Shown: piece after piece, positions 8,781 through 24,056 of the stretch
Numbering within the stretch: the stretch's first letter is position 1
Layout: each line of letters opens with the position of its first letter
Source: a virus
Reading direction: 5' to 3' (one strand)
Length of the DNA: 29,430 bases
IMG/VR virus record: IMGVR_UViG_3300046028_005495
Span: 1-29,430 of that record
Translations under genes and position numbers: made by a program
The notes under the pieces: model-generated
What the model was told of the DNA's origin: nothing
Database searches by the model: none
The model's input: the letters and a program-made list of their open reading frames with translations, nothing else

Positions 8781-9269
8781 ATGGCTGAATTACTTGATCC
8801 TACCGAAATATTTTTTACCCCGTATGAACCGAAACTTGCCAACCGGTTTATCATGTATATTGAAGGCGTCCCAGCATACCTCATCAAAGGTGCAGGTAGA
8901 CCAAACATCAACTTCAACCCAATCACACTTGACCACATCAATGTCAAGCGTAAGGTAAAAGGTAAGGGTGAATGGCAGGACGTGACTATCAAGCTATATG
9001 ACCCGATTGTACCATCAGCTGCACAGGCAGTCATGGAGTGGGTTCGTCTATCACACGAGTCTGTAACAGGTCGTGACGGATATTCTGACTTCTATAAGAA
9101 GGACATCACATTCAACGTTCTTGGCCCAGTTGGTGACAAGGTTGAAGAATGGACTTTGAAGGGTGCTTTCATTACAGCAACAACATTTGGTGATATGGAT
9201 TGGTCAACGGATAACTTCGTTGAAATCTCTCTCACACTTGCTTATGATTACGCAATCCTCCAGTTCTAA
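8781..9269 (+). CDS. 19: Tail tube protein (gp19-like)
   Basis: A 162-residue protein, the same size as T4 gp19 (163). It has the tube-protein plan: an N-terminal strand region (EPKLANRFIMYIEGVPAYLIKGAGRP), the central VKGKGEWQDVTIKLYDP segment, and the C-terminal EEWTLKGAFITATTFGDMDWSTDNFVEISLTLAYDYA strands that form the inner beta-barrel of the hexameric ring. The KGAFI, DMDW and LAYD residues are typical of phage tube proteins. It has its own TATTTATA box and GGAG site, and an inverted repeat follows, so it is probably expressed as its own abundant transcript. Its codon choice resembles the sheath C-terminal region. Confidence 0.95.
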   Translation: MAELLDPTEIFFTPYEPKLANRFIMYIEGVPAYLIKGAGRPNINFNPITLDHINVKRKVKGKGEWQDVTIKLYDPIVPSAAQAVMEWVRLSHESVTGRDGYSDFYKKDITFNVLGPVGDKVEEWTLKGAFITATTFGDMDWSTDNFVEISLTLAYDYAILQF

Positions 9270-9369: not shown

Positions 9370-10239
9370 ATGGCACAAGTATCAACCGGATATAATCTTC
9401 CAAAAACTGGAGCGGAGATGTCCGACGAAGAACTCAAAGCCCATTTGATGGCGGACTTCAAACAAACATCAGTCAAGAAATCGAATTTCCCAACGGAAAT
9501 AATTCCACTCCCGTCAAAGGGTCTTTTATATTCAGAAGACCATCCTCTTGCCGAGGGTACGATTGAAATGAAGTATATGACTGCAAAAGAAGAAGATATT
9601 TTGACTTCACAGAATCTTATCAAGCAAGGCGTTGTTTTGGATAAGTTATTCGAGTCGCTTATTGTTACATCAATCAATTATGGTGATTTGTTTGTTGGCG
9701 ATAAAAATGCAATCATGGTTGCAGCTAGAATTTTAGGATATGGAAAAGATTATGTAGTTGAAGTTGACGACCCGTTTTCACCTGGTACAAAACAAAAAGT
9801 TACAATTGATTTGACTCAAATAGAGCACAAGGAGGTGGATTATTCTCTATTCGAGCAACGTAAGAACGAATTCGATTTCGAACTACCACAGTCAAGACGG
9901 GTTGTCACTTTTAGACTTATGACTCATAGTTTGGACAAACAAATACAGACGGAAATAAAAGGTATGAACAAAACAACTGTTCGTACAGGTATTGATAGAG
10001 AACTAACAACTCGTTTGAAAAATCTGATAATTGCAGTTGATGGTGAATCGGGTCGTGCTACCGTAAATAATTTTGTTGATAATGAACTATTTGCACTCGA
10101 TTCTCGAGCACTACGTTCGTATATGAAGCAAATAACACCAGACCTTGACATGACCTTTACATTTGTTTCAGAAACAACAGGAGAGGTAAAGGAGATGGAC
10201 ATCCCAATGGATGTTTCCTTTTTTTGGCCTGGGAACTGA
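9370..10239 (+). CDS. Tail/baseplate assembly chaperone (T4 gp26-like)
   Basis: A 289-residue soluble protein. It contains the pattern of the T4 gp26-type baseplate family: IIPLPSKGLLYSEDHPLAEGTIEMKYMTAKEEDIL (about 44-78), then LDKLFESLIV, a GDKNAIMVAARILGYG segment (110-125), a small beta domain (residues 125-150) and a long C-terminal domain with RLMTHSLDKQI and SRALRSYMKQITPD. Its place between tube and tape measure genes is where contractile- and long-tailed phages encode tail assembly chaperones that coat the tape measure. The gene ends in TTT TTT TGG CCT GGG AAC TGA and overlaps the next frame by 29 bases across a run of seven Ts, so a frameshifted long form of about 361 residues is likely. 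AGGA precedes the ATG. Confidence 0.75.
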   Translation: MAQVSTGYNLPKTGAEMSDEELKAHLMADFKQTSVKKSNFPTEIIPLPSKGLLYSEDHPLAEGTIEMKYMTAKEEDILTSQNLIKQGVVLDKLFESLIVTSINYGDLFVGDKNAIMVAARILGYGKDYVVEVDDPFSPGTKQKVTIDLTQIEHKEVDYSLFEQRKNEFDFELPQSRRVVTFRLMTHSLDKQIQTEIKGMNKTTVRTGIDRELTTRLKNLIIAVDGESGRATVNNFVDNELFALDSRALRSYMKQITPDLDMTFTFVSETTGEVKEMDIPMDVSFFWPGN

Positions 10240-10456
10240 TTATAAACTAGGATTACATGAAGAGATATTCTCTTTATGTTATCATGGAAAAGGTGGTTTT
10301 ACATGGGATGAGGTTTATTGTCTCCCAATACACTTGAGAAGATTCTATATTCAACAAGTAATAAAGGCAATAGAAGAAAAAAACAAAGCGGAAAGTGCAG
10401 AATACAGCAAAGCAAAACGTTCGGTTCCAAGTTTTTCTTCCTCACCTAAACAATAA
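10211..10456 (+). CDS. Second frame of the tail assembly chaperone (frameshift extension)
   Basis: An open frame in the +1 phase relative to the upstream gene, overlapping its last 29 bases. The encoded segment GTDYKLGLHEEIFSLCYH, GGFTWDEVYCLPIHLRRF and the following charged helix (YIQQVIKAIEEKNKAESAEY) look like a genuine conserved domain, not random sequence. The ATG at 10211 has no well-placed ribosome binding site: GGAG at 10191-10194 is 16 bases away. A +1 (or -2) slip on the T run would instead fuse it to the upstream protein, as with lambda gpG/gpGT-type tail chaperones. I therefore treat it as the C-terminal extension of the long form; separate translation from the internal ATG is the alternative. 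It ends before a terminator-like hairpin. Confidence 0.7.
   Translation: MFPFFGLGTDYKLGLHEEIFSLCYHGKGGFTWDEVYCLPIHLRRFYIQQVIKAIEEKNKAESAEYSKAKRSVPSFSSSPKQ
10216..10227 (+). other. Candidate programmed frameshift site (TCC TTT TTT TGG)
   Basis: Seven consecutive Ts (10219-10225) lie in the overlap of the two chaperone frames. After the zero-frame codon TTT at 10222-10224, a +1 slip lets the same tRNA re-pair with TTT at 10223-10225 and continue as GGC CTG GGA, entering the downstream frame. A -2 slip would also keep perfect pairing and add one Phe. A simple -1 slip would not reach the open frame. Confidence 0.5.
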
Positions 10457-10751: not shown

Positions 10752-13700
10752 ATGGCTCGTAGAAATAATACACAAAATCCTAATCAGAATCAGCAACCGC
10801 AACAGCAACCGTCTCGGCCATCAGCTGATGCAGAGAACGCCAGAAGCAGAGCTGCATCAGAATATAATCGTATTCAAGGAGAAATTCTAGAAACAGAGCG
10901 GAAACTTGCAGAAGCTAGAGCTATAACTGCGCGCACAGCGGATGAACAACTTGAGAAAGACCGCAAAATATCGCAACTTGTACAAGAACGAGTGGTTCAC
11001 TTACAACAACTTCAAGCTCAAGAACAAGAAATATCATCAATATTGGATGATCAAGAGAATACCGAAAAAAATATAGTAGAAATAATAAGAAAAAGACGGC
11101 GAGACCAGTCTGAAGTGAAAGACTTGTCACAATCTGTTCTAGTAAGTATGAGAGAACAGAGACATGAAATGACAGAAATTAGTGACGTTGGTAGACAAGT
11201 TACCGAAAATATGCAAGCTAGTTCTGACCTTTCCAGAAAGTTTGGTAATATACTACAAACAGTTACCAATCAATTGGCTGATGGAGCAAACTTTTCAGAC
11301 CAATTTATGGATACCCTCCAAGAAACAAATAAAGTTCGTGAAGAATACCGTAATCTTGAAAGAGAAATAGCTGATGGTGCAAAAGCAGCCGCAGAAGGTA
11401 AATATGATTCTAAAAAAGTAGAAGAAGATTTAGCAAAGAAAATGACTAAAATTCGAATTGATGAAGAGGCGTTTCAAGATAAGATGAATGAGTTCTTGGA
11501 AAATAGAGAAAATATGACCGAAAAAGAAATACTAAATAAACAAATAGAGCTAGATATAGAACGAGAAGCATTGAATGCAAGAAGAGGTGCCCATGATATA
11601 ATGTTACAACAAAATAAAGCATTGGGAGAGGCATCTGAAACAGCTGAAAAAACACTTGGGGTACTTGATAAAATAACAAGCGGGGATTTCAAAGGCGCAC
11701 TACTTCAGAAATTCGGACTGGATGACATAAATTCTCAGCTAAAAGAAAAAGTTGGCGGTGCCCTTGTAAATGTAGTAAAATCTGTAAAAGCAGGTGACTT
11801 GAAAGGTGCATTTTCTGAAGCTGGTAAAGGTCTCAAGAGTATTCTTGATATGGCTGGTAAATTGACAATGGCTCTAGGTATAGGTGCCATTCTTATGTTG
11901 GGAAACTTCCTAATCAATTCATTTGGAAAATTGGATAAAGAAGTTTCACAGCTCGGTAAAGACTTTGGTATAAGTAAGAATGAGGCGAAAGAACTTCATC
12001 ATACTGCAGTAGACGTTTCAAATGAAATGCGAGTTACTGGAATACATTCTGAAGAAATTGCAAAGAGTCTAAAAACAGTTAGTGATAATCTCGGTGGAAT
12101 TGATTTGACTGGTGCATTTGCAAGTGGTAATGCTCAAGTTCAACAGATGGTAAAAGATACCGCACTTCTTACTGAGAAATTTGGATTGAGTGCTGAAGAA
12201 GCTGGTAATCTAAGTAACATAGCCGCCATATCTGGTAAATCGGTTGGTGAAATGAGTATGATGGCATCTACTCTTGGTAAGGGTATATTCTCTGCAAAAG
12301 ACTCTATGAAGATACTTGCTGGTATTCCAAAGAGTATTGTATCTCAAATGTCAAAAATGCCAGAGGCAATGATAAAGACTGCAATGCACGCAAAGATGCT
12401 TGGTATGAATATGAAGCAAATTGCGGACATTGGTCGTAAGAGTCTTGATATTGAACAGTCTCTTGAGGCTGAAATGGAAGCCCGTGTATTGCTTGGTCGA
12501 GAAATAAACTTGGATGCCATGAGACAAGCTGCACTTGCAGGTGACCAAGAAAAGGTAATGAACGAACTTCTAAAACAAGTCGGTTCGATGGAAGACTTCA
12601 ATAAGATGAATGTACTTCAGAAAGAAGCTCTCGCAAAAGCTGCAGGTATGGAAGTTGACCAAATGGCTGAAATGCTTGGAAAACAAGAAGAACTCAATAA
12701 GGCTGGATTATCACAACAACAATTACAAGAACTCCAAGCAAAAAATGCAGGTGATTTGGCAAAGATGGCTGCAGAAACTGGTGATAAAGACAAAAAGGCA
12801 TATCTTGAAAAATTGGCCGCAGAGAAAAAGTCTGAAGAAACACAAGCAGCAATGGCGGATTTGATGAAACGAATTCAGGAAATTGCTGTAAAACTGTTAG
12901 ATCCAATATTGGATATGGTTGACGGTCTCATGAATGGAAAAGACGGTGCCGAGGCAATGGATGGAATTCTAAATGCAGTAAAAGGAACCGTTGGTTTTAT
13001 AAAACCTATTATTGCAGCTATAGCTGCTACAATAGGTTATATTGTAAAACCATTGACTTGGATACTTGGATTATTTGGAGATTCTAAAGAACAGACTCAA
13101 GAAATCGCAAAAACAACTGGAAAGGTAGGAGATGGAGTACAAGCAGTCACTAACCAAGTAAAACCACTAACATCTGGATTTGGAAGTGTTCTCACTGCTC
13201 TTACTGCAATAGGTGGTTACTTCTTTGGTAAATCTTTACTCGTAAAGGGAATGGATTTACTAAAAACTAAAGCATTGGATTTTGGTTCTGCTATGGTATC
13301 AAAAGTTGCTGGTTCATTTGATAAAGTACAAGACAAAGCAACTGGTGTAACTAAAACACTTATGGGTAAAGTCAGCGGTGCAACCAAGAAAATTGGTGAA
13401 AAGATTGGCGGAAGTGTTGCAGATAAAGGGGCAGAAGCTGTATCAAAAGCACCAATTCCAGGCGGTCCTGGTAAAAAAGGTAGTGCATTTAAAGACTTTT
13501 TTAAAAAAATGGATCCGAAGAAAATGTTAGCTGGCGCCGCTGCACTTCTTATTGTTGCTGCCGCACTTTATGTTGCAGCAAAGGCAATGCAAGAGTTTTC
13601 AACCGGTGTGAAATGGGAGGGTGTGATTATGGGTATAGTTACACTTGGTGCTCTTGTAGGGGCAGTTATGGTACTTGGTGCGATAATGTCATCGGGAGTA

Positions 13701-14702
13701 GGTGCGGTGGCAATTATAGCTGGCGCTGCTGCATTGTTTATATTATCAGGTGCATTATATGTTATGGGTAAGGCAATGCAAGAATTTTCAAAAGCAGCTG
13801 TTATACTAATTCCGTTTTTTCAAGAAATGACTAAATTGGATATGGATAAACTTGCAAAATTAGCCATAAACATCGCACTATTAGGTGGGGCATTTGCTCT
13901 TCTTGGTACAATGATGGTGCCTATAATGATGGGTGCTGCCGCATTTGCAGTATTAGGTGCATCACTTGCCGTGTTCGGTGTTGCTGCGATGATTGCTGGA
14001 AAAGGAATAAAGGACATAACCACAAGTATTGCAGAACTTTTAAATTTTGATAGTTCAAAATTTGATGGAGTTGCAAAGGGTCTTGGAACTATTGGTGATG
14101 CCATTTTGAAAATGGGTGCTGGTAGTTTGATGTCTGGTGTTGGTGACGGCATATCCAAATTATTTGGTGGTGGAGAAAGTCCATTGGACAAGGTGGCAAA
14201 TATATCACAAAAACTAAATCCAGAAAAACTATCCGCAACAGCGAAGGCCATAAAAGATTTGGCAGATTCATTCAAGTATTTTGCAGATGAAACCGCAAAA
14301 CTAAAAGAGTTTGATACAGATAAATTAGACTCAATCATACAAAAAATGGAAGAAGTCCAACAGGCAGAAGCCGCAGGTGGCATGGCAAAGGCAGTGACTG
14401 GAGTAGCAAATGCGGTTACTGGATTTATTGGTAATCTGTTTGGTTCTCCAGAACAACAATCGTCACAACCAGTTTCTGCTGGTACTACTGCGATTAGTGG
14501 AGCCGGTGGCGGAGGTGGTACAACAAATATGGCTAATGTTGAGAAGAAACTCGATACACTTATATCTGTTATATCACAAGCTGCAAACCAACCACTTGTT
14601 ATCAAGTTTGGTGAGAAGACAGTGGAAGAAATAAAATCACAACTTAACTTCAAAGCGTCAACGGACATCGGTGTTAACAAGGGATATGCTAAAACTATAT
14701 AA
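10752..14702 (+). CDS. Tail tape measure protein
   Basis: A 1316-residue protein with the classic tape measure build. A Gln/Asn/Pro-rich start (NQNQQPQQQP) leads to about 300 residues of charged coiled coil, then a Gly/Ala/Lys-rich helical middle with many Met and Gln residues. A strongly hydrophobic Ala/Gly/Leu/Ile/Val region follows at about residues 925-1085, with four or five potential membrane-crossing helices. These could insert in the host membrane during ejection. The C-terminus is a helical segment, a Gly-rich linker and a short globular end. No peptidoglycan hydrolase motif is evident. Length sets tail length in this class: at about 1.5 angstrom per residue, it would predict a tail near 200 nm, about twice T4 (gp29, 590 residues). 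No clear Shine-Dalgarno precedes the ATG. Confidence 0.9.
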   Translation: MARRNNTQNPNQNQQPQQQPSRPSADAENARSRAASEYNRIQGEILETERKLAEARAITARTADEQLEKDRKISQLVQERVVHLQQLQAQEQEISSILDDQENTEKNIVEIIRKRRRDQSEVKDLSQSVLVSMREQRHEMTEISDVGRQVTENMQASSDLSRKFGNILQTVTNQLADGANFSDQFMDTLQETNKVREEYRNLEREIADGAKAAAEGKYDSKKVEEDLAKKMTKIRIDEEAFQDKMNEFLENRENMTEKEILNKQIELDIEREALNARRGAHDIMLQQNKALGEASETAEKTLGVLDKITSGDFKGALLQKFGLDDINSQLKEKVGGALVNVVKSVKAGDLKGAFSEAGKGLKSILDMAGKLTMALGIGAILMLGNFLINSFGKLDKEVSQLGKDFGISKNEAKELHHTAVDVSNEMRVTGIHSEEIAKSLKTVSDNLGGIDLTGAFASGNAQVQQMVKDTALLTEKFGLSAEEAGNLSNIAAISGKSVGEMSMMASTLGKGIFSAKDSMKILAGIPKSIVSQMSKMPEAMIKTAMHAKMLGMNMKQIADIGRKSLDIEQSLEAEMEARVLLGREINLDAMRQAALAGDQEKVMNELLKQVGSMEDFNKMNVLQKEALAKAAGMEVDQMAEMLGKQEELNKAGLSQQQLQELQAKNAGDLAKMAAETGDKDKKAYLEKLAAEKKSEETQAAMADLMKRIQEIAVKLLDPILDMVDGLMNGKDGAEAMDGILNAVKGTVGFIKPIIAAIAATIGYIVKPLTWILGLFGDSKEQTQEIAKTTGKVGDGVQAVTNQVKPLTSGFGSVLTALTAIGGYFFGKSLLVKGMDLLKTKALDFGSAMVSKVAGSFDKVQDKATGVTKTLMGKVSGATKKIGEKIGGSVADKGAEAVSKAPIPGGPGKKGSAFKDFFKKMDPKKMLAGAAALLIVAAALYVAAKAMQEFSTGVKWEGVIMGIVTLGALVGAVMVLGAIMSSGVGAVAIIAGAAALFILSGALYVMGKAMQEFSKAAVILIPFFQEMTKLDMDKLAKLAINIALLGGAFALLGTMMVPIMMGAAAFAVLGASLAVFGVAAMIAGKGIKDITTSIAELLNFDSSKFDGVAKGLGTIGDAILKMGAGSLMSGVGDGISKLFGGGESPLDKVANISQKLNPEKLSATAKAIKDLADSFKYFADETAKLKEFDTDKLDSIIQKMEEVQQAEAAGGMAKAVTGVANAVTGFIGNLFGSPEQQSSQPVSAGTTAISGAGGGGGTTNMANVEKKLDTLISVISQAANQPLVIKFGEKTVEEIKSQLNFKASTDIGVNKGYAKTI

Positions 14703-14745: not shown

Positions 14746-17700
14746 ATGGCATTAGTAGATTTATCATCCGACCTTTCTAAATTTCGTTCTGAAGTTTCTC
14801 GTGAACCAAAGAGTACACCAGAGTCATCAAAGGCAACGAATAATAAGAACTTTGCAACCTTTCAGCCTATAACTGAAAAGTTGTCTCAGTTTTCTATGAA
14901 TGTGAAACGCCAAGAGCCTAAAAAATTGGAATCCAAACTTGAGTCTACAAATTTAGATGATATAAAAAAAGTGGTTTCTCAAAACTTGATAATCAATCGA
15001 GTTTCGAGATTGTCAAACATAAACCAAGATTATGATGGACAAAATAGGGCTGCAATTCCTACCGCAATGGTATCTGAAAGACTTGGACAGGTTCAAATAA
15101 CTGAATTTTCTAGTAGACTAACAAAATCAGATATTATACCGATAAAACAATCACAGGGTACTAATAACAATATATCTGGTATAAATGTAGAAACTCAAAG
15201 TCAGGGGATTTATAACAACATATCCCCAGTGGAAGTTACTAATGATAAGGACGAACAATCCAACAATATAGTAAATCCAGATGTAGATATAATTGTACCC
15301 GTTCAGTCATTTGATAGAACGGCAACTAGCCCTGATATAAAACCAAATCTAACTGATTCTTCGGATAATATAACCGACCCAAAAATCGAAATAACAAGAC
15401 CACCACAATCTTTTGATAGGGAAGAACAATCTATTGAAATATCAAAAGATTTAGTTTCACCTATCAACAATATAACTGATCCAAAAACAGTTTTAGACTT
15501 GAATGTTCTTACATACGAAAGAGCAAAACAAAGTCCTCCGATAGTGACTGATAGAAGACAAGATGGCTTTGTAACAGACCCAAAAACGGGTGTTTTTAGA
15601 TTTGATGGCGCAACTATACAGACTGACGATAATAGTAGACTGAATATAGATGGATTACCTATTAGATTTATTCCAATATCTCAATTGGAAAAATTCGAAT
15701 TACCACGAGAAGTTGATATAGCAAGATATGACTTGGAATCTATACAGACTGAAGATAACAGTAATCTGAACGTGGATGCCGTGATAAAAACAAATCCTTC
15801 TGGTAGACATGAAGACCCATCCGTTTCTGGACTTTCTATAATCGGAACACAATCTGTAAACTTTTTTACAGACACAAAAGCCAAGGGGTTTGTAGTTAGA
15901 CAACAAGGTGGAGAAACATTATACACAGGACAGTCTGTATTTGGATGGTCTGGTAAGCGTGAGTCTGCTCCAACAACCAATTTTATATCCGATACAAATG
16001 GTAAAGGTTTTACAAAGTTTGCACAAATTGGACAAACATTGTATGAAACGGAATCTTCTGTTTTTGGTTTTACTACAATACAGTCTACTGACTTTTTTGA
16101 TGTGACCAAAAAGTACAGTTCAGATGGGTTCAAATTATTTGCGACTTTATATGAATCAGACTACAAAAAAGATTCGTCACAATTTACCTTCAATGGTGCC
16201 GCAGATTCTGCACCTGTTGTAAACTATTTTGATTTGAACGGAAAAGTTACATCTGATGGCTTCCACAAATTTGCTCAGATTTATGACACCAAATATGTAC
16301 CAGATTCTTCACTATTCACATGGACTGGTAATAGAGATGGTGCACCAGAATCAAACTTCTTTGATGTAAATTCTACTTCAACTACTTCTGGATTCCATAA
16401 GTTTGCGCAAATCTATGATACAAAGTACATACTAGATTCTTCAATCTATGACTGGGATGGTACACGAGAAGATTCTCCGGAAGTAAACTACTTCGATATT
16501 TCTGGTAAGAATACAAAATTTGGATTCCATAGATTTGCTCAGATTTATGATACAAAATACATACCGAACTCTTCAATTTATGACTGGGACGGTACTTCTG
16601 AAAATGCACCTGAAGTAAACTATTTTGATATAATAGGAAAAAATACATCGCAAGGATTTCATAAATTTGCTCAATTGTATCAAACAAAATATGTCCACGA
16701 ATCTTCGGATTTGGATTGGAATGGTGTAAGAACGGATGCACCTGAAGTAAACTATTTTGATATTACAGGAAGAAACACAAACGCCGGTTTTCACAGACTG
16801 GCTCAATTGTATGATACAAAGTATATTCATGAGTCATCCGATTTTGATTGGAATGGTGTAAGAACAGATGCACCCGAAGTAAACTATTTTGATTTGACTG
16901 GTCAACATACAACAAGTGGATTTCATAAACTTGCACAGATTTATGATACAAAGTATGTTCATGAGTCTTCATTGTTTGATTGGAATGGTGTAAGAACAGA
17001 TGCACCTGAAGTAAACTATTTTGATCTTGGTGGAAGAAATACAACAATTGGTTTCCATCGTCTGGCTCAATTATATGATACAAAGTATATTCATGAGTCT
17101 TCATTGTTTGATTGGAATGGTGTAAGAACAGACGCACCTGAAGTCAATTTCTTTGACCTAAATAAACAACATCAGACAGTTGGATTTCATAGACTTGCTC
17201 AAAAGTATGATACCAAATTTATCAAAGACTCATCTTTATTTGATTTTGACGGCGGAAGTAGTAATGCACCTGAAGTTAATTTCTTTGACTTGAACGGTCA
17301 ATTCACATCAAAAGGATTTGAGAAATTCCCACAGGCACTCGTAACTAGGTACATAAAAGATTCATCTCGATTTGATTTTGATGGCAATAGTAAAAGTGCA
17401 CCTGAAACTGATTTTTTTGATCTTTCTAAGAAATTTACATCAAAGGGATTCGAGAAGTTTCCACAATTATTAGTTACCAAATATATCAAGGATTCTTCAC
17501 AGTTTGATTTTGATGGAACAAGTAAAAGTGCACCAACAACAGACTTCTTCCCAAACACCAATGCAAAAGGATTCACATCGTTCCCTCAAAAACTTCAGAC
17601 GGAATATGTAAAAGACAGTAGTGAATTTACATTCAAAGGTTCTTTACCATCGGCAGTGAATTTCTTCCCAGATGATAACCAATCTGGATTTATAAATAAG

Positions 17701-20700
17701 ACACCGTTGTTGGAAACAAAATACGAAAAGGATTCATCAAGATTTACGTTCAAAGGTACTTTACCAGAACCAGTTGATTTCTTTCCAAATACATCAGCAC
17801 CTGGGTTTGAAATAAAAACAGCACCACTCGAAACAAAATACATACAGGACGTTAGTAGATTTACATTCAAGGGAACTCGTGCAGATGCACCAAATGTGAA
17901 CTATTTCCCAGATGATTTCAATAGTGGATTTACAACACTAGCTCAGCCTCTTTCTACCGAGTATCAATCTGATATATCGAGGTTTACATTCAAGGGAACT
18001 CGTCAGGACGCACCATCTGTTGATTATTTACAAAATAATCCTGCATCTGGATTTGAGATACTAACACAGCCTCTTCAAAGTAAATACAAAAAAGAAGTTA
18101 GTAGATTTACTTGGGTAGGTACAAGACAAGATTCTCCGGAAGTTGATTTCCTAAAAATTCCAAATGGTAATCCAAATTCTATAAATGGATTCACGAGATT
18201 ATTTGCCGATGTAACTGATACTAAACTTTCAGATTCATTCTCAAGATTTTCAATAGAAAGTGCAAACAGTTTTTCTTCTGTAAAGAAAGTCCCATATACA
18301 AAGTTCTTTGGTTTCTTACCAATTGAACGTTCTGGATTTTTAGTTGGAATGACAAATGTCAATTCTTCACTATACCCACTATTCAATCCGAAATTGACAC
18401 CAGATGATCCGGCAGGAACTAGATTTTCAATAGAAGGACAACGTAGTCAAAATAGAAGACAAATGACCGATAACGTTGCGAAGTACGCTCCAAAAACTCT
18501 TGGTGGTTTATTTTGGTCAGACGGAATCAATACTGGAACAGCAACTCTTGATAATCAAGTTCCGTACATAAAAACGAAAGAACCTGATTCGTTTGGAAGT
18601 ACATACTTCCGCAAATATGAGAAGTTGGCTAAAGATTCAACTGAAAGTCTTGGTTACTTGACAAAGTGGGCAATAACTAGGAGGTCACCTTCACCACTTG
18701 ATGCTCAATATAATAAGTACAAGCTTCAAGCTGAATCAACAAACTACGGTTCTCCAAATTCCCTTCAACCTTATGTTGTTCGCGGTATTCAACGAGACGG
18801 TGAAGTTGAAAATCAGCGTTGGGGGTTTGGTGTAAATTTCGATGATGGATTTGTACGGGGTGGAGTAGTCACACAAGTTGAGAGAATATTTGAAGACTTG
18901 AAACGAATAGGTCAATGGTCTCTTAGTACAAAAGGATTGATGTTCAATATACGTCAACTTGCATTACAAGTTATGAATCCTGTTACGGATGTTGACCCCG
19001 ATAATAAATTCACAAGTGGAATAATCGGACTACCTTATCCATCGACTATGTTGTATAATCCGTTTTCTCTTGTAGCTAATATAGCAACGGCTAGAATAGG
19101 TCTACATTTACCTCGTCATGGTATATTGCCTTTCAGTAATATTTTTCTGAACAAATATGAAACTGCTACAAAAAATAGAGAACTGAAATTAGATACATCG
19201 AATCCAGAATACAAATCTTGGGAAAATGTATCAAAACCTTCATCTAGCAACAGAGACCCAGACGGAAAAAGTAGATTGATAGGTTTGATGAAAGAACTTT
19301 TGCCTAATTCGTTTAGTCCAATCGTATCATCAACTAGGACACAGATTCCATCACTTCCATCGGAAGCACAGCAAGCTATTGATACGGCAAGAGGATTAGA
19401 TTCATCTAGTCCGGATGCCGCAAAATATGCAGAAGATAAAGCAAAACAAATACAGACAGACGTGAATAACGGAAAAGAGGCATATAAAAATCCTGGACAG
19501 GGGTCTACTAATGCTTCTGGATTTGGTGAATCATCTACTATAAATCGTTTGACAACATCATTTGGAGGACCAAATTCATTTTTGGGAATTGGTGGAACAA
19601 CATTCAACAGAGCAGGTCATCCGTATCTTACATACTATACAACAAACCCAGATTTGTATGACTCTAAACATCCTTCATATAATGATTTCATGAAGAGAGA
19701 TACATATTTTGCGGCAACCAAAACATACGGTGATGTTTTACTATCCAATAGCACTATTAGAGCTTTGTACTATCTACTCGGTGGAGACGCAAATAAACCA
19801 GCGGATATTCCAACATTGGATAGTGTAGATGTTCCTGTTCAGAAGGGTGTGAAGGATATACTGAAAGCATCGTTATCATTGTCCGCAGAATATCCACTTG
19901 AAAACACTAGATTGTTTGCAACAACCAAATATGATCAGGCAATTTCAACCAAGAAAAAAATATCACAAGGGCCACAGGTTGACCCAGAAGGTATTCCTGG
20001 TGCTATACGAAGATATAGAACTTCAAATTATGATCAACTGAAACGTAATGATAGACGTAGGAGTAGTAAATTCAATGATTTTAGAGGTTCAATTACTTTG
20101 GACGAGAAGACAAAGGCATTTGTTACAAATCCAGATATTGCTAGATTCGATACAAGAAATCTAACAGATAGATATGGATTTGGCGATCAAGGTGAACCTG
20201 GAGCTCAACGAGACCTTCCATATTTGAGTACAATTCAATACTCAAGATTTGCAAAGGAAGGTATATTCAATTCAGGTGAAAGTGAATTCAAAGATTATGC
20301 TGTATCTTCTGAAAAGATAATAGATGGACAAAAACAGAAGTTTAGAGGAGACCGAATAAATATCATAGATTACAAGCGAGCAAATTTCAACATAAACACA
20401 AACTTGGTTTATGAAAAAGGGGAATATACTGACCAATTACCTGGTGCTGACGATTTGATTGAATTTTACTTTTCAAGTCTTGTATTGAGTGGTCATAAGA
20501 ATTGCCCAGCCGAAGTTATTGTATTTAGAGCATCATTCAATAGTATAACTGATAATCACAATCCATCTTGGAATTCTGTAAAATATATGGGACGTGCAGA
20601 CCCACTATATGTATATCAAGGGTATGAAAGAGAAATATCATTTGGATTTACAGTACACATTGGTTCTCGTGATGAAATGAAAGCTTCTTGGAGAAAGTTA

Positions 20701-21363
20701 AATTATCTTGCTTCTTGGACTGCCCCTGAGTATATTAGAAGTGGATTGATACGTGGACCTATGATTCGTTTGAATATAGGACACTTGTATAGAAAAATGC
20801 CTGGATATATTTCTTCACTTTCATATACATTTGATAATTCACAAACTACATGGGAAACCGCAAAATTACCTGAAGATATGGCACTAGCAGACCCAACAGT
20901 TTCAAAACGAGTCAAACCTGGAGTTTTACAGCTACCTAAACACGTAGATGTAAGTATCTCATTTGTTCCTGTTGGAGTTTACAGACCAGAATTCCGTGGA
21001 ATTATGTATAGTCTTTATGATGACCGTGTTTCAGGAAACAATGTAGAAACAGGACTACAACCACTTACAAGTAAGAAGGTAAATTATTTCAATGAATTTG
21101 ATGATACTGATGAGCCGGTAATTTATAGTGGAGTCGATGTTGATAAGAAAGGTTCTCTTGCTGAAAGGGATTATGGTGCCGCTGCAAATGCAAATCGCGC
21201 AATAGACAGCGAACCTATTTTCAGTAGCGAAGTTGTCCCGGAACCAGATACGAGTGGCCTTCAAGAATTTAACGAACAACAAAGAGCTCAACAAGATGCC
21301 GAACAGATGGAAAGAGTAAGATCTGAAGCTGGAGATTTTTCTGATATAAGTGGGTTAGGTTGA
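14746..21363 (+). CDS. Giant repeat-containing baseplate protein (possible tube-initiator-like C-terminus)
   Basis: A 2205-residue protein, the largest in the window. Residues 1-370 are low in hydrophobics, rich in Asn/Asp/Ser/Thr, and contain loosely repeated phrases (NNIS, NITDPK, SFDRE). Residues about 371-1230 are some 19-20 repeats with the signature (N/D)(Y/F)F-x-GF-x-Q-x-TKY-x-DSS-x-F-x-G; see the repeat feature. Residues about 1230-1880 are non-repetitive, including QLALQVMNP and IGLHLPRHG. A folded C-terminal domain (about 1880-2140) contains DLIEFYFSSLVLSG, GRADPLYVYQGYEREISFGFTV, RGPMIRLNIG and VDVSISFVPVG, patterns I associate with baseplate or tube-initiator proteins of large myoviruses. 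The last 60 residues are acidic and Gln-rich. Its position between tape measure and LysM/gp53-like genes supports a baseplate role. The exact function and the purpose of the repeats are unknown. Confidence 0.75.
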   Translation: MALVDLSSDLSKFRSEVSREPKSTPESSKATNNKNFATFQPITEKLSQFSMNVKRQEPKKLESKLESTNLDDIKKVVSQNLIINRVSRLSNINQDYDGQNRAAIPTAMVSERLGQVQITEFSSRLTKSDIIPIKQSQGTNNNISGINVETQSQGIYNNISPVEVTNDKDEQSNNIVNPDVDIIVPVQSFDRTATSPDIKPNLTDSSDNITDPKIEITRPPQSFDREEQSIEISKDLVSPINNITDPKTVLDLNVLTYERAKQSPPIVTDRRQDGFVTDPKTGVFRFDGATIQTDDNSRLNIDGLPIRFIPISQLEKFELPREVDIARYDLESIQTEDNSNLNVDAVIKTNPSGRHEDPSVSGLSIIGTQSVNFFTDTKAKGFVVRQQGGETLYTGQSVFGWSGKRESAPTTNFISDTNGKGFTKFAQIGQTLYETESSVFGFTTIQSTDFFDVTKKYSSDGFKLFATLYESDYKKDSSQFTFNGAADSAPVVNYFDLNGKVTSDGFHKFAQIYDTKYVPDSSLFTWTGNRDGAPESNFFDVNSTSTTSGFHKFAQIYDTKYILDSSIYDWDGTREDSPEVNYFDISGKNTKFGFHRFAQIYDTKYIPNSSIYDWDGTSENAPEVNYFDIIGKNTSQGFHKFAQLYQTKYVHESSDLDWNGVRTDAPEVNYFDITGRNTNAGFHRLAQLYDTKYIHESSDFDWNGVRTDAPEVNYFDLTGQHTTSGFHKLAQIYDTKYVHESSLFDWNGVRTDAPEVNYFDLGGRNTTIGFHRLAQLYDTKYIHESSLFDWNGVRTDAPEVNFFDLNKQHQTVGFHRLAQKYDTKFIKDSSLFDFDGGSSNAPEVNFFDLNGQFTSKGFEKFPQALVTRYIKDSSRFDFDGNSKSAPETDFFDLSKKFTSKGFEKFPQLLVTKYIKDSSQFDFDGTSKSAPTTDFFPNTNAKGFTSFPQKLQTEYVKDSSEFTFKGSLPSAVNFFPDDNQSGFINKTPLLETKYEKDSSRFTFKGTLPEPVDFFPNTSAPGFEIKTAPLETKYIQDVSRFTFKGTRADAPNVNYFPDDFNSGFTTLAQPLSTEYQSDISRFTFKGTRQDAPSVDYLQNNPASGFEILTQPLQSKYKKEVSRFTWVGTRQDSPEVDFLKIPNGNPNSINGFTRLFADVTDTKLSDSFSRFSIESANSFSSVKKVPYTKFFGFLPIERSGFLVGMTNVNSSLYPLFNPKLTPDDPAGTRFSIEGQRSQNRRQMTDNVAKYAPKTLGGLFWSDGINTGTATLDNQVPYIKTKEPDSFGSTYFRKYEKLAKDSTESLGYLTKWAITRRSPSPLDAQYNKYKLQAESTNYGSPNSLQPYVVRGIQRDGEVENQRWGFGVNFDDGFVRGGVVTQVERIFEDLKRIGQWSLSTKGLMFNIRQLALQVMNPVTDVDPDNKFTSGIIGLPYPSTMLYNPFSLVANIATARIGLHLPRHGILPFSNIFLNKYETATKNRELKLDTSNPEYKSWENVSKPSSSNRDPDGKSRLIGLMKELLPNSFSPIVSSTRTQIPSLPSEAQQAIDTARGLDSSSPDAAKYAEDKAKQIQTDVNNGKEAYKNPGQGSTNASGFGESSTINRLTTSFGGPNSFLGIGGTTFNRAGHPYLTYYTTNPDLYDSKHPSYNDFMKRDTYFAATKTYGDVLLSNSTIRALYYLLGGDANKPADIPTLDSVDVPVQKGVKDILKASLSLSAEYPLENTRLFATTKYDQAISTKKKISQGPQVDPEGIPGAIRRYRTSNYDQLKRNDRRRSSKFNDFRGSITLDEKTKAFVTNPDIARFDTRNLTDRYGFGDQGEPGAQRDLPYLSTIQYSRFAKEGIFNSGESEFKDYAVSSEKIIDGQKQKFRGDRINIIDYKRANFNINTNLVYEKGEYTDQLPGADDLIEFYFSSLVLSGHKNCPAEVIVFRASFNSITDNHNPSWNSVKYMGRADPLYVYQGYEREISFGFTVHIGSRDEMKASWRKLNYLASWTAPEYIRSGLIRGPMIRLNIGHLYRKMPGYISSLSYTFDNSQTTWETAKLPEDMALADPTVSKRVKPGVLQLPKHVDVSISFVPVGVYRPEFRGIMYSLYDDRVSGNNVETGLQPLTSKKVNYFNEFDDTDEPVIYSGVDVDKKGSLAERDYGAAANANRAIDSEPIFSSEVVPEPDTSGLQEFNEQQRAQQDAEQMERVRSEAGDFSDISGLG
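15859..18270 (+). repeat. About 19 in-frame tandem repeats, twelve of exactly 132 bp
   Basis: Taking the Asn/Asp codon before the aromatic pair as the register, units begin at 15859, 15979, 16090, 16222, 16354, 16486, 16618, 16750, 16882, 17014, 17146, 17278, 17410, 17542, 17659, 17776, 17899, 18022 and 18145. The eleven intervals from 16090 to 17542 are all exactly 132 bp (44 residues). Flanking intervals are 111-123 bp. Units around 16618-17146 are nearly identical in DNA (for example GATTGGAATGGTGTAAGAAC at 16846, 16978 and 17110), while outer units share only the protein signature. A degenerate twentieth unit may follow to about 18430. Confidence 0.95.
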
Positions 21364-21396: not shown

Positions 21397-21738
21397 ATGT
21401 CTTCAAGATATGAAAATTCAAACATAATAACTAATTCCAGGAAAGTAGAATCTGATGGTAAAGTGAAAATAGTCAGAAGACTAAAGACAACTTTATATCC
21501 AGATTTCAATCAATTTTTGAGTGAAGACACATATATTCTATCACAAGAAAATGATAGGCTGGATATTCTAGCTAAAGAATTTTATGGAGATGAAGTTTTT
21601 TGGCACGTAATTGCAAAAGCAAACGGAATAGGACATGGAACATTGGTAGTTCCTCCCGGTATGATAATACGAATACCGTATTATGATGAATACCAACCTA
21701 TATCAAAACTTATAAAAGATTTGAATGAAAGGCGATAG
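21397..21738 (+). CDS. 53: LysM-like baseplate wedge protein (gp53-like)
   Basis: A 113-residue protein. Residues about 43-97 form a LysM-like unit: DTYILSQENDRLDILAKEFYGD, then FWHVIAKANGI, then VVPPGMIIRIPYYDEY. This is the beta-alpha-alpha-beta pattern, with a tyrosine-containing first strand, the DxLxxIA-type helix and the proline-bounded last strand. Small LysM-type proteins of this kind are baseplate parts in contractile systems; T4 gp53 (196 residues) contains such a fold. It lacks the extra domain of T4 gp53. AAAGG precedes the ATG, and the stop lies 2 bases before the hub-like gene, so the two are co-translated. LysM folds can bind glycan, but in baseplates they are structural; I favour the structural role. 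Confidence 0.75.
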   Translation: MSSRYENSNIITNSRKVESDGKVKIVRRLKTTLYPDFNQFLSEDTYILSQENDRLDILAKEFYGDEVFWHVIAKANGIGHGTLVVPPGMIIRIPYYDEYQPISKLIKDLNERR

Positions 21739-21740
21739 TT

Positions 21741-24056
21741 ATGGCATCTGATGCATCTGGAAAATACAACCCGTTTTACAGACAAGTTTCGGGCGATGTT
21801 TCTGGTGAACTAAATAAGCGAGGTGATTTTTATGGATCACGAGTTAGGTCGCAACGAGTAGTACCCGGTACAAAAGGGTTCCCAGAAGCTGAAAGACTTT
21901 TATGGTCTTATGGAAAAACGGCATATGCAATAGTGCGTGCTGGGGGAATAACGCTTGGTGGGTCTGGTACAAGAGTTATGTCAGATAGAGGTGGAAATCT
22001 AACTCTGTATGATTCAACTAGAAATCAACCTAAATATCCATTACTCCAATCTATTGAATTATCAAATGAAGGAACTATTGGTTCTCTTCTAAAAGGTTCA
22101 TTCACCTTTACTGTCTATCCTGATATTTCTTCTTCTGGATTTGCAATGGAAGGTTTAGAAAATGCCTTCTTCAAACCAGGAAAAGAAGTTACTATAAAGT
22201 ATGGGTGGTCTGTTAGAGATGGTGGTCCAAATAACGGTGAACTAACCGGTATAATTTACAATTTCGATTGGAGTGTAAATAACGATTTATCTATAACCGC
22301 GAAGTGTAGTATTGTTTCAAAGGCAACTATTGCAATAGGTGTTTCTGGTGAACAGACAAACAAAGAAACAAATGACCCAAAAGAAGATCCACTCGGGCAA
22401 CCAATACCGGATGGTGATTTAGCTGGTATTCTTGAGTCTGATGTGAAGTTATTGGGTGGATTACAAAACAAGAGTGTAAATACTGGAACAACAAAGTATT
22501 ACACGAAATCTGAAGTTGGTGGTTCCCAAAAATTTGATTACTATGTAATTGGTATGCCAATGAGTTTGGCAGATGTACCCGATGATCAATTATCTGATGC
22601 AGATAAACAAAAAAAAGCAGACTATGAAAGTAATAAAGAAACACAAAATAAAAAGAATGATTTGGTAAAGAAGTTTGCAACTGGCATACAAGGTGAAAAA
22701 GAAGCACGTGTGGGATTTGAAAAGGCAAAAGCATCAGGACAAACTGAATTTGTTTGGAGAGAGAATGGGGTCGATAAAAAAGGAGACGCAGGAGCTTATG
22801 ACGCTTACTTGACTAAAATCAGCAATGATAGACGAAACAGACTAAGAGAAGAATATCGATCAACTTTTGGAACCAGTCCAGGAAGTGCTGGTGAAAATGA
22901 TTTGGTAAAACAAGCAGAATCGGCAGGAACGTCTGCCGCAGCTGCGAAGGCATCAGGACAAGCAACAGCTGCAAACCAAAATCAAGGAGAAGGTCCTTAT
23001 GGTGCAAAAGCACCGGCACCAGTAACTCAACCCGTATATTTTGTAAAACTTGGAGATTTGACTCAATTTGTAAATCTGATATTAGATACGTCTCCCCTCG
23101 GTGCGAGTTTGTTTACGGTCCAATGTTTTGGAAACACAACAAAACATTTGCCAGACATAGCATCATCTGCACCAGAACGTGTATTTTTCCCAGACGATGA
23201 GATGGGAACGTATGGTGATTTCAAACCATATGCTGGTTCTGGATTTTTGAAAAATGAAACATTGATTGATATTGGAAACATTCTAATATCAACCACAGCC
23301 GTTATAGAAACGTATCGTTCATTTGTAAAAGAAAACCAAACAAGTATAGAATATAAAAATCTAACTGGATTTTTTGATAAACTAATACAAGAAGTTAACT
23401 TTGCATCGGGTGAAATGTATCAATTGGCTACTCAACTGATAGACCCGCCTAAAGGTGGAAAGGGCGGTACTAAGGCTATACTTGCAATAGAAGATACCAA
23501 TATTGCGTCTGAAGTAATAGATAAAGTTACACCATTTCCTTTTACGGCTACTATTGCAAAACCTATTCTAAAATCCGTTAGTATAAGTTGTAAACCACCT
23601 GCAGCATCCGCCGCCGCAGCATACACGCAGGCGAGAGGTGATGGTAGAGTTGGTGGTGATGTATCATATTCGGCTAAAGGTGTACCGGATGAATTTACTG
23701 CTGCATATAATGGTATTCAAAAATCGAAAGACGGCTTCTTAACAAACGGAGCTGGTCCTCAGTTCACAACGGGTCTAAAGGGAAATTATGCAAGATATAA
23801 GAGGACATCTCCTGCAAATGAAAGTAGTCATTGGCTAACTAAAGTTTTGTATCCGATAGATTTTTCATTGACTATTGATGGTATAGATGGTTTTAAGTTT
23901 GGTGATGTCATACAGACAAATCTTATACCATCTAGATATAATCAAGAAGGTATGGTATTTGTTGTTACTAAAATTGGTCACACTATTCAAAACGGTGTTT
24001 GGGAAACTACTTTGAACACAAAGGCAAGAATAGATCCATCAAAACTACAACAATAG
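21741..24056 (+). CDS. Baseplate hub-like protein
   Basis: A 771-residue protein. The N-terminal region (about 40-200) has hub-type beta segments: LLQSIELSNEGTIGSLLKGSFTFTVYP, PGKEVTIKYGW and GELTGIIYNFDWSVNNDLSITAKCSIVS, as in proteins that form the hub ring and switch from tube to spike. A long, charged, Ala/Lys/Gly-rich insertion (about 205-415) looks flexible. The C-terminal half resumes folded sequence and closes with FSLTIDGIDGFKFGDVIQTNLIP and VFVVTKIGHTIQNGVWETTLNTKARI, a typical end of gp27- or gpD-type hub proteins. It is about twice the size of T4 gp27 (391). No lysozyme motif is visible, unlike T4 gp5. It follows the LysM protein after 2 bases, with AAAGG in the overlap. The hub role is inferred from pattern and position. 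Confidence 0.6.
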   Translation: MASDASGKYNPFYRQVSGDVSGELNKRGDFYGSRVRSQRVVPGTKGFPEAERLLWSYGKTAYAIVRAGGITLGGSGTRVMSDRGGNLTLYDSTRNQPKYPLLQSIELSNEGTIGSLLKGSFTFTVYPDISSSGFAMEGLENAFFKPGKEVTIKYGWSVRDGGPNNGELTGIIYNFDWSVNNDLSITAKCSIVSKATIAIGVSGEQTNKETNDPKEDPLGQPIPDGDLAGILESDVKLLGGLQNKSVNTGTTKYYTKSEVGGSQKFDYYVIGMPMSLADVPDDQLSDADKQKKADYESNKETQNKKNDLVKKFATGIQGEKEARVGFEKAKASGQTEFVWRENGVDKKGDAGAYDAYLTKISNDRRNRLREEYRSTFGTSPGSAGENDLVKQAESAGTSAAAAKASGQATAANQNQGEGPYGAKAPAPVTQPVYFVKLGDLTQFVNLILDTSPLGASLFTVQCFGNTTKHLPDIASSAPERVFFPDDEMGTYGDFKPYAGSGFLKNETLIDIGNILISTTAVIETYRSFVKENQTSIEYKNLTGFFDKLIQEVNFASGEMYQLATQLIDPPKGGKGGTKAILAIEDTNIASEVIDKVTPFPFTATIAKPILKSVSISCKPPAASAAAAYTQARGDGRVGGDVSYSAKGVPDEFTAAYNGIQKSKDGFLTNGAGPQFTTGLKGNYARYKRTSPANESSHWLTKVLYPIDFSLTIDGIDGFKFGDVIQTNLIPSRYNQEGMVFVVTKIGHTIQNGVWETTLNTKARIDPSKLQQ

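Follow-up and report, generated by a model that had tools for sequence, protein, structure and literature searches.

Organization of the tail locus

The window (the whole stretch of DNA that was analysed, 29430 bases) is the entire virus record and probably a fragment, so the absence of a gene within it says little. A tape measure gene of 1316 aa (10752..14702, + strand; phrog_4372, E 3.5e-5) is followed by one giant open frame of 2205 aa (14746..21363, +), a 113-aa gene that begins 33 bases past it (21397..21738, +), and a 771-aa gene in hub position (21741..24056, +), which is named by position only and gave no PHROG or Pfam match. The tail tube gene is separate and encodes 162 aa (8781..9269, +), with a match to phrog_4542 at E 8e-27 and to PF06841 just below the cut-off. 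The 113-aa gene was matched to phrog_7145 ('baseplate wedge subunit', E 1.8e-10), and the PDB sequence that it matched best was gp16, a baseplate protein of A-1(L) (E 0.018), which confirmed that a LysM/gp53-like gene directly follows the giant gene, as stated in the preliminary description. The order tape measure, giant gene, LysM gene, hub position was also found in phages Mel-JY01 and immuto. The hub-position gene carries a carboxypeptidase annotation in immuto, and is about 1300 aa long in three of the related loci (L069, L073, L076).

The giant protein begins with a peptide conserved in long relatives (residues 1–45, 14746..14880, +; residues 1–40 average 0.68 identity to the window), and carries a repeat array at about residues 381–1179 (15886..18282, +), with 18 units by profile, mostly of 44 aa; identity at a lag of 44 aa was 0.49 versus 0.10, the highest among 200 shuffles. 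The array is followed by a region conserved in part (residues 1180–1880, 18283..20385, +), a putative tube-initiator domain delimited by alignment, models and fold searches (residues 1881–2122, 20386..21111, +), and a C-terminal tail (residues 2123–2205, 21112..21360, +). Among 46 long relatives, residues 1881–2122 were conserved, most strongly residues 1921–2040 (identity to the window 0.74–0.83), and conservation was gone after about residue 2120, leaving an identity of only 0.03–0.09 over the last ~83 residues.

Positions 20386–21363, the last 325 codons and the stop of the giant open frame, had been described as an initiator of ~320 residues behind a repeat extension of ~1880 residues. The three beta-rich segments quoted in that description were all located within the giant frame, and the assignment was kept for residues 1881–2122, but not for the unconserved last ~83 residues. 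The repeat array is real, with its 44-aa period, but spans about residues 381–1179 and not all of the ~1880; the extension also contains ~700 further residues between array and initiator, partly common to a short relative.

Relatives and domain architectures

Related loci were collected from IMG/VR, where 159 of 180 candidate stretches were confirmed and 80 of the 159 were kept, and these were examined together with four named phages (RM378, immuto, Mel-JY01, and the 484-kb phage LR756508), giving 84 rows. Removal of duplicates and cut proteins left 54 relatives for alignment with the window, in all 47 long proteins (1768–2984 aa, window included) and 8 others (458–1579 aa). Units of the 44-aa type were present in 47 of 47 long proteins, with 7 to 21 each, and in 0 of 8 others. 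In one long protein (L066), a 16-aa repeat precedes the seven 44-aa units. Among the 8 others, L091 has a period of 26/52 aa.

The C-terminal domain has homologues in all four named phages, where the proteins are listed as 'hypothetical protein' or without annotation. The extension differs among them, being short in RM378 (458 aa in total), moderate in immuto (716 aa), and composed of the same repeats in Mel-JY01 (2255 aa), whereas in LR756508 (1579 aa; L016 10768-15504) the domain stands behind about 900 residues of unrelated acidic repeats, with a period of ~17 aa and a net charge of -249 over 900 residues. The first 430 residues of a short relative (L092) matched the array-to-initiator region of Mel-JY01 at E 1e-7, and a search for this middle region in the named phages found it in Mel-JY01 at most. 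Since part of the array-to-initiator region is common to a short relative, the giant form may have arisen from an older and shorter protein by enlargement of its N-terminal part.

Structure prediction and fold searches

Residues 1881–2122 gave no usable match in Pfam, PHROG, NCBIfam or PDB sequences; phrog_1114 (head morphogenesis) was touched by 3 of 12 domain members with a best E of 0.037, and was set aside as weak. About 240 residues aligned across twelve relatives, later 46, and an AlphaFold2 model of the domain from 46 rows (mean pLDDT 72, pTM 0.66) contained two long strands, a helix, and then more strands. A second model, of 1183 residues, had pLDDT mostly 70–91 in the core of the same domain.

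In Foldseek searches of the PDB, the first matches were baseplate chains of PVC, Afp, a Streptomyces eCIS, phi812 and A-1(L) (E 3.7e-6 to 5e-5), with one baseplate chain of Agrobacterium phage 7-7-1 also among them, at moderate TM-scores (0.41–0.47 by query length, first six PDB rows). Particular eCIS chains in this group are ones that we take to be initiators. Tube, neck and Dit chains ranked below the baseplate chains. In VIA-align, a P1 baseplate chain scored Z 10.1, the A-1(L) initiators 9.8, an Afp chain 9.2 and T4 chain 5iv5_BE (presumably gp48 or gp54) 8.5, values near 8–10 that are only slightly higher than the stated background Z of 7–8. The second model produced the same set of structural matches, and some BFVD structural neighbours of the domain bear the CIS tube name. 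The tube-initiator fold, a guess in the preliminary description, was thus borne out by the fold search of residues 1881–2122, which put baseplate tube initiators first with both models, and models and searches together point to the tube-like beta-barrel of contractile-injection tube initiators.

Profile comparisons of the domain gave no match to PF11091 (T4_tail_cap, gp48) or PF19266 (CIS_tube), and hhalign gave probabilities of 0.6% for T4 gp54 and 0.2% for T4 gp48; since the two T4 profiles have little depth (Neff 2.1 and 2.4), the missing link to gp54/gp48 is a weak negative. A separate gp48/CIS_tube gene, not expected under the preliminary description, was sought in the records of Mel-JY01, immuto, LR756508 and RM378, where PF11091 and PF19266 had no match in 4 of 4 and the profile of the domain itself hit a single place per record; this too is a weak negative, since the same Pfam profiles miss the known domain as well, and a second, diverged initiator may exist.

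Identity of the C-terminal domain

The C-terminal domain of the giant is very probably the tube initiator of a contractile tail. The fold matches, the gene order, the separate tube gene and the occurrence of the domain once per named record (4 of 4) argue for this identity; the missing sequence-level link to any named initiator family, the moderate TM-scores, Z values little above background, and a fold common to tube, Dit and terminator proteins argue against it. The gene lies near the tape measure, LysM and hub genes (hub by position only) and apart from the main tube gene, and a LysM-type adaptor, in initiators part of the chain or a partner, would be supplied here by the downstream gene, a partner predicted from its sequence. 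That the domain is some other member of the wider tail-tube fold, for example a terminator of the tail, a ring of the Dit kind or an additional tube protein, is very unlikely: chains of these kinds do occur in the structural lists (8q01, 9mu3, 2x8k, 2wzp), but they rank below baseplate initiators with both models, the tail tube gene exists separately from the giant, and the giant keeps its place between tape measure and LysM/hub genes in Mel-JY01 and immuto too.

As a tube initiator, six copies of the C-terminal ~240 residues would form a ring on the hub, as hexamers do in the named relatives, the neighbouring LysM protein would hold this ring, and the first tail-tube ring would stack on it, with nucleation as in those relatives. 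By analogy with the hexamers of known initiators, a ring of six would carry six repeat arms; six arms per virion would require the ring to be hexameric, as it is in the named relatives.

Published systems were used for comparison. In A-1(L), gp16 bears a LysM domain and is separate from the tube initiator gp18 (PMC10966104), Mu has barrel and LysM within one chain (PMC11915804), and XM1 gp11, a tube-like ring, starts the tube (PMC10457771). The domain of the giant shares the barrel fold of A-1(L) gp18 (8kea_P, Z 9.8), and gp16 is a separate LysM gene as here (8kea_J matches the downstream gene, E 0.018); the gp18 barrel is N-terminal (residues 2–180), with an alpha/beta domain behind it, whereas that of the giant is C-terminal after ~1880 residues. 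The best Foldseek matches (eCIS/PVC/Afp chains 6j0n_b, 6rao_G, 9qgl_7A, 9gtp_M and 7aeb_M) have barrel and LysM in one chain of ~225 aa without the extension, whereas two genes are present here. In chain 7aeb_M, from the Algoriphagus eCIS, residues 2–168 share the fold of the giant's domain and residues 167–209 weakly match the 113-aa gene in sequence (E 0.17), which suggests that one barrel-plus-LysM eCIS protein corresponds to two adjacent genes here, much as in A-1(L) with its separate gp18 and gp16. T4 has the same order of tape measure then cap, with 5iv5_BE as its structural match; gp48 and gp54 are two proteins, of 364 and 320 aa, with no profile-profile similarity to the domain.

Fold and role are of a known kind, and the new part is the ~1880-residue N-terminal extension, which is unusual; no description of such an initiator extension, and no mention of Mel-JY01, was found in open-licence PMC papers. 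An initiator would be able to bear an N-terminal extension well beyond a thousand residues, and a likely role is provided for the unannotated proteins of Mel-JY01, immuto, RM378 and LR756508, as well as for those of the 80 loci kept among the 159 confirmed in IMG/VR.

Length analysis of the extension

In the 1183-residue model, the six repeat units that it covers (residues 901–1147) had block-mean pLDDT of about 24–40 and were unfolded, and pLDDT was patchy over residues 1180–1880. Values this low agree with a chain that is unfolded or depends on a partner, without proving it, and on this model the extension is probably fixed at the ring and unfolded for the most part.

A first pass on 17 relatives gave rho of 0.60–0.67 between extension and tape measure. 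The length test was then widened to the 42 of 47 long proteins with a whole tape measure. Five were omitted: in L041 and L069 the contig end truncates the tape measure, in L071 a stop lies inside the tape-measure match, and L081 and L082 nearly duplicate L079. Outside the correlation stood 7 proteins that lack 44-aa units but have a tape-measure length, and RM378, in which the tape measure was not located, had no length value. Spearman coefficients with tape-measure length (n = 42) were 0.84 for the number of units, 0.69 for the array end, 0.64 for total length and 0.59 for array length. With independent contrasts on three trees (n = 42), r was 0.65–0.72 for the array end (sign-flip p 0.0002–0.0015), 0.57–0.68 for units, 0.45–0.53 for array length and 0.39–0.41 for the part before the array. 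The signal was spread along the tape measure, the most even segment (715–1100) giving 0.33–0.46.

Any coupling is loose, since L064 and L065 are three units apart although their tape measures are practically equal (1293 and 1292), and L094 combines a tape measure of 2669 aa with a protein of 545 aa that lacks 44-aa units. Since the test was post hoc, conceived after the first values had been seen, with five length measures and three trees tried, the correlation needs an independent set. It is possible, if less than probable, that the domain is the initiator and the extension a weakly constrained tether or spacer, the length link coming from lineages in which repetitive proteins expand together; the post hoc design and its five measures agree with this, and the signal leans heavily on a few contrasts, r falling to 0.43–0.56 for the array end and 0.26–0.50 for units after dropping the three largest contrast products. 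Against such a tether, two controls on the same trees gave next to no correlation, namely post-array length (r 0.06–0.08) and the hub-position gene, available for 41 of 42 (r -0.10 to 0.07, and 0.09–0.19 once the outlier L076 is dropped).

Possible roles of the extension

Surface-exposed host-contact parts often differ in sequence between lineages, and the repeat sequence is wholly different between lineages here, as it would be if the initiator bore outward flexible whiskers that touch host or fibres and have no role in tail length. This is rather doubtful, since the length of the extension still follows that of the tape measure once the tree is corrected for, the lengths of the post-array part and hub-position gene do not, and no carbohydrate-binding or fibre family was matched along the whole giant protein in Pfam or PHROG.

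In the reading that we prefer, the repeats of an initiator-borne extension might instead touch the tape measure or the tube over some of the tail's length while it is assembled, and such contact would explain an extension that grows and shrinks with the tape measure; that the arm works along the tape measure or tube is, on the present data, a doubtful proposition. A stricter version, in which the initiator-fused repeat arm is a second length element and tail length is set by two proteins, appears unlikely. Six arms would then run from the baseplate along the tape measure or tube, with a repeat number that changes with the tape measure, and would be built from unrelated repeats in different lineages. 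Should the extension prove to be causally linked to the tape measure, a second component would take part in tail length control; no second tape measure in phage tail-length control was found in open-licence PMC papers. Strictly one repeat per tube ring was not supported in that form: at about 27–29 tape-measure residues per ring, a ratio that we assume, 1316 residues equal some 45–49 rings, far above 18 units, and the contrast (RMA) slope is 21–22 tape residues per unit.

Additional features of the tail genes

Larger differences in tape-measure length between relatives lie in the C-terminal half, and several small N-terminal ones are of 7 or 14 residues, as from heptad repeats. Upstream of the giant gene of L071 (record G024), the tape-measure match has an in-frame TAG and frames of 667 and 387 aa, which may reflect a broken gene, a sequencing error or a recoded stop. 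In the window, a 289-aa gene (phrog_150, 9370-10239) and an 81-aa frame (10211-10456), which is +1 (or -2) relative to it, overlap by 29 bases, and a run of seven T lies within the overlap (10219-10225); from a parallel that we assume, the two may be a pair of tail assembly chaperone frames joined by a frameshift. The annotated Mel-JY01 genes at the equivalent place likewise overlap by 29 bases.
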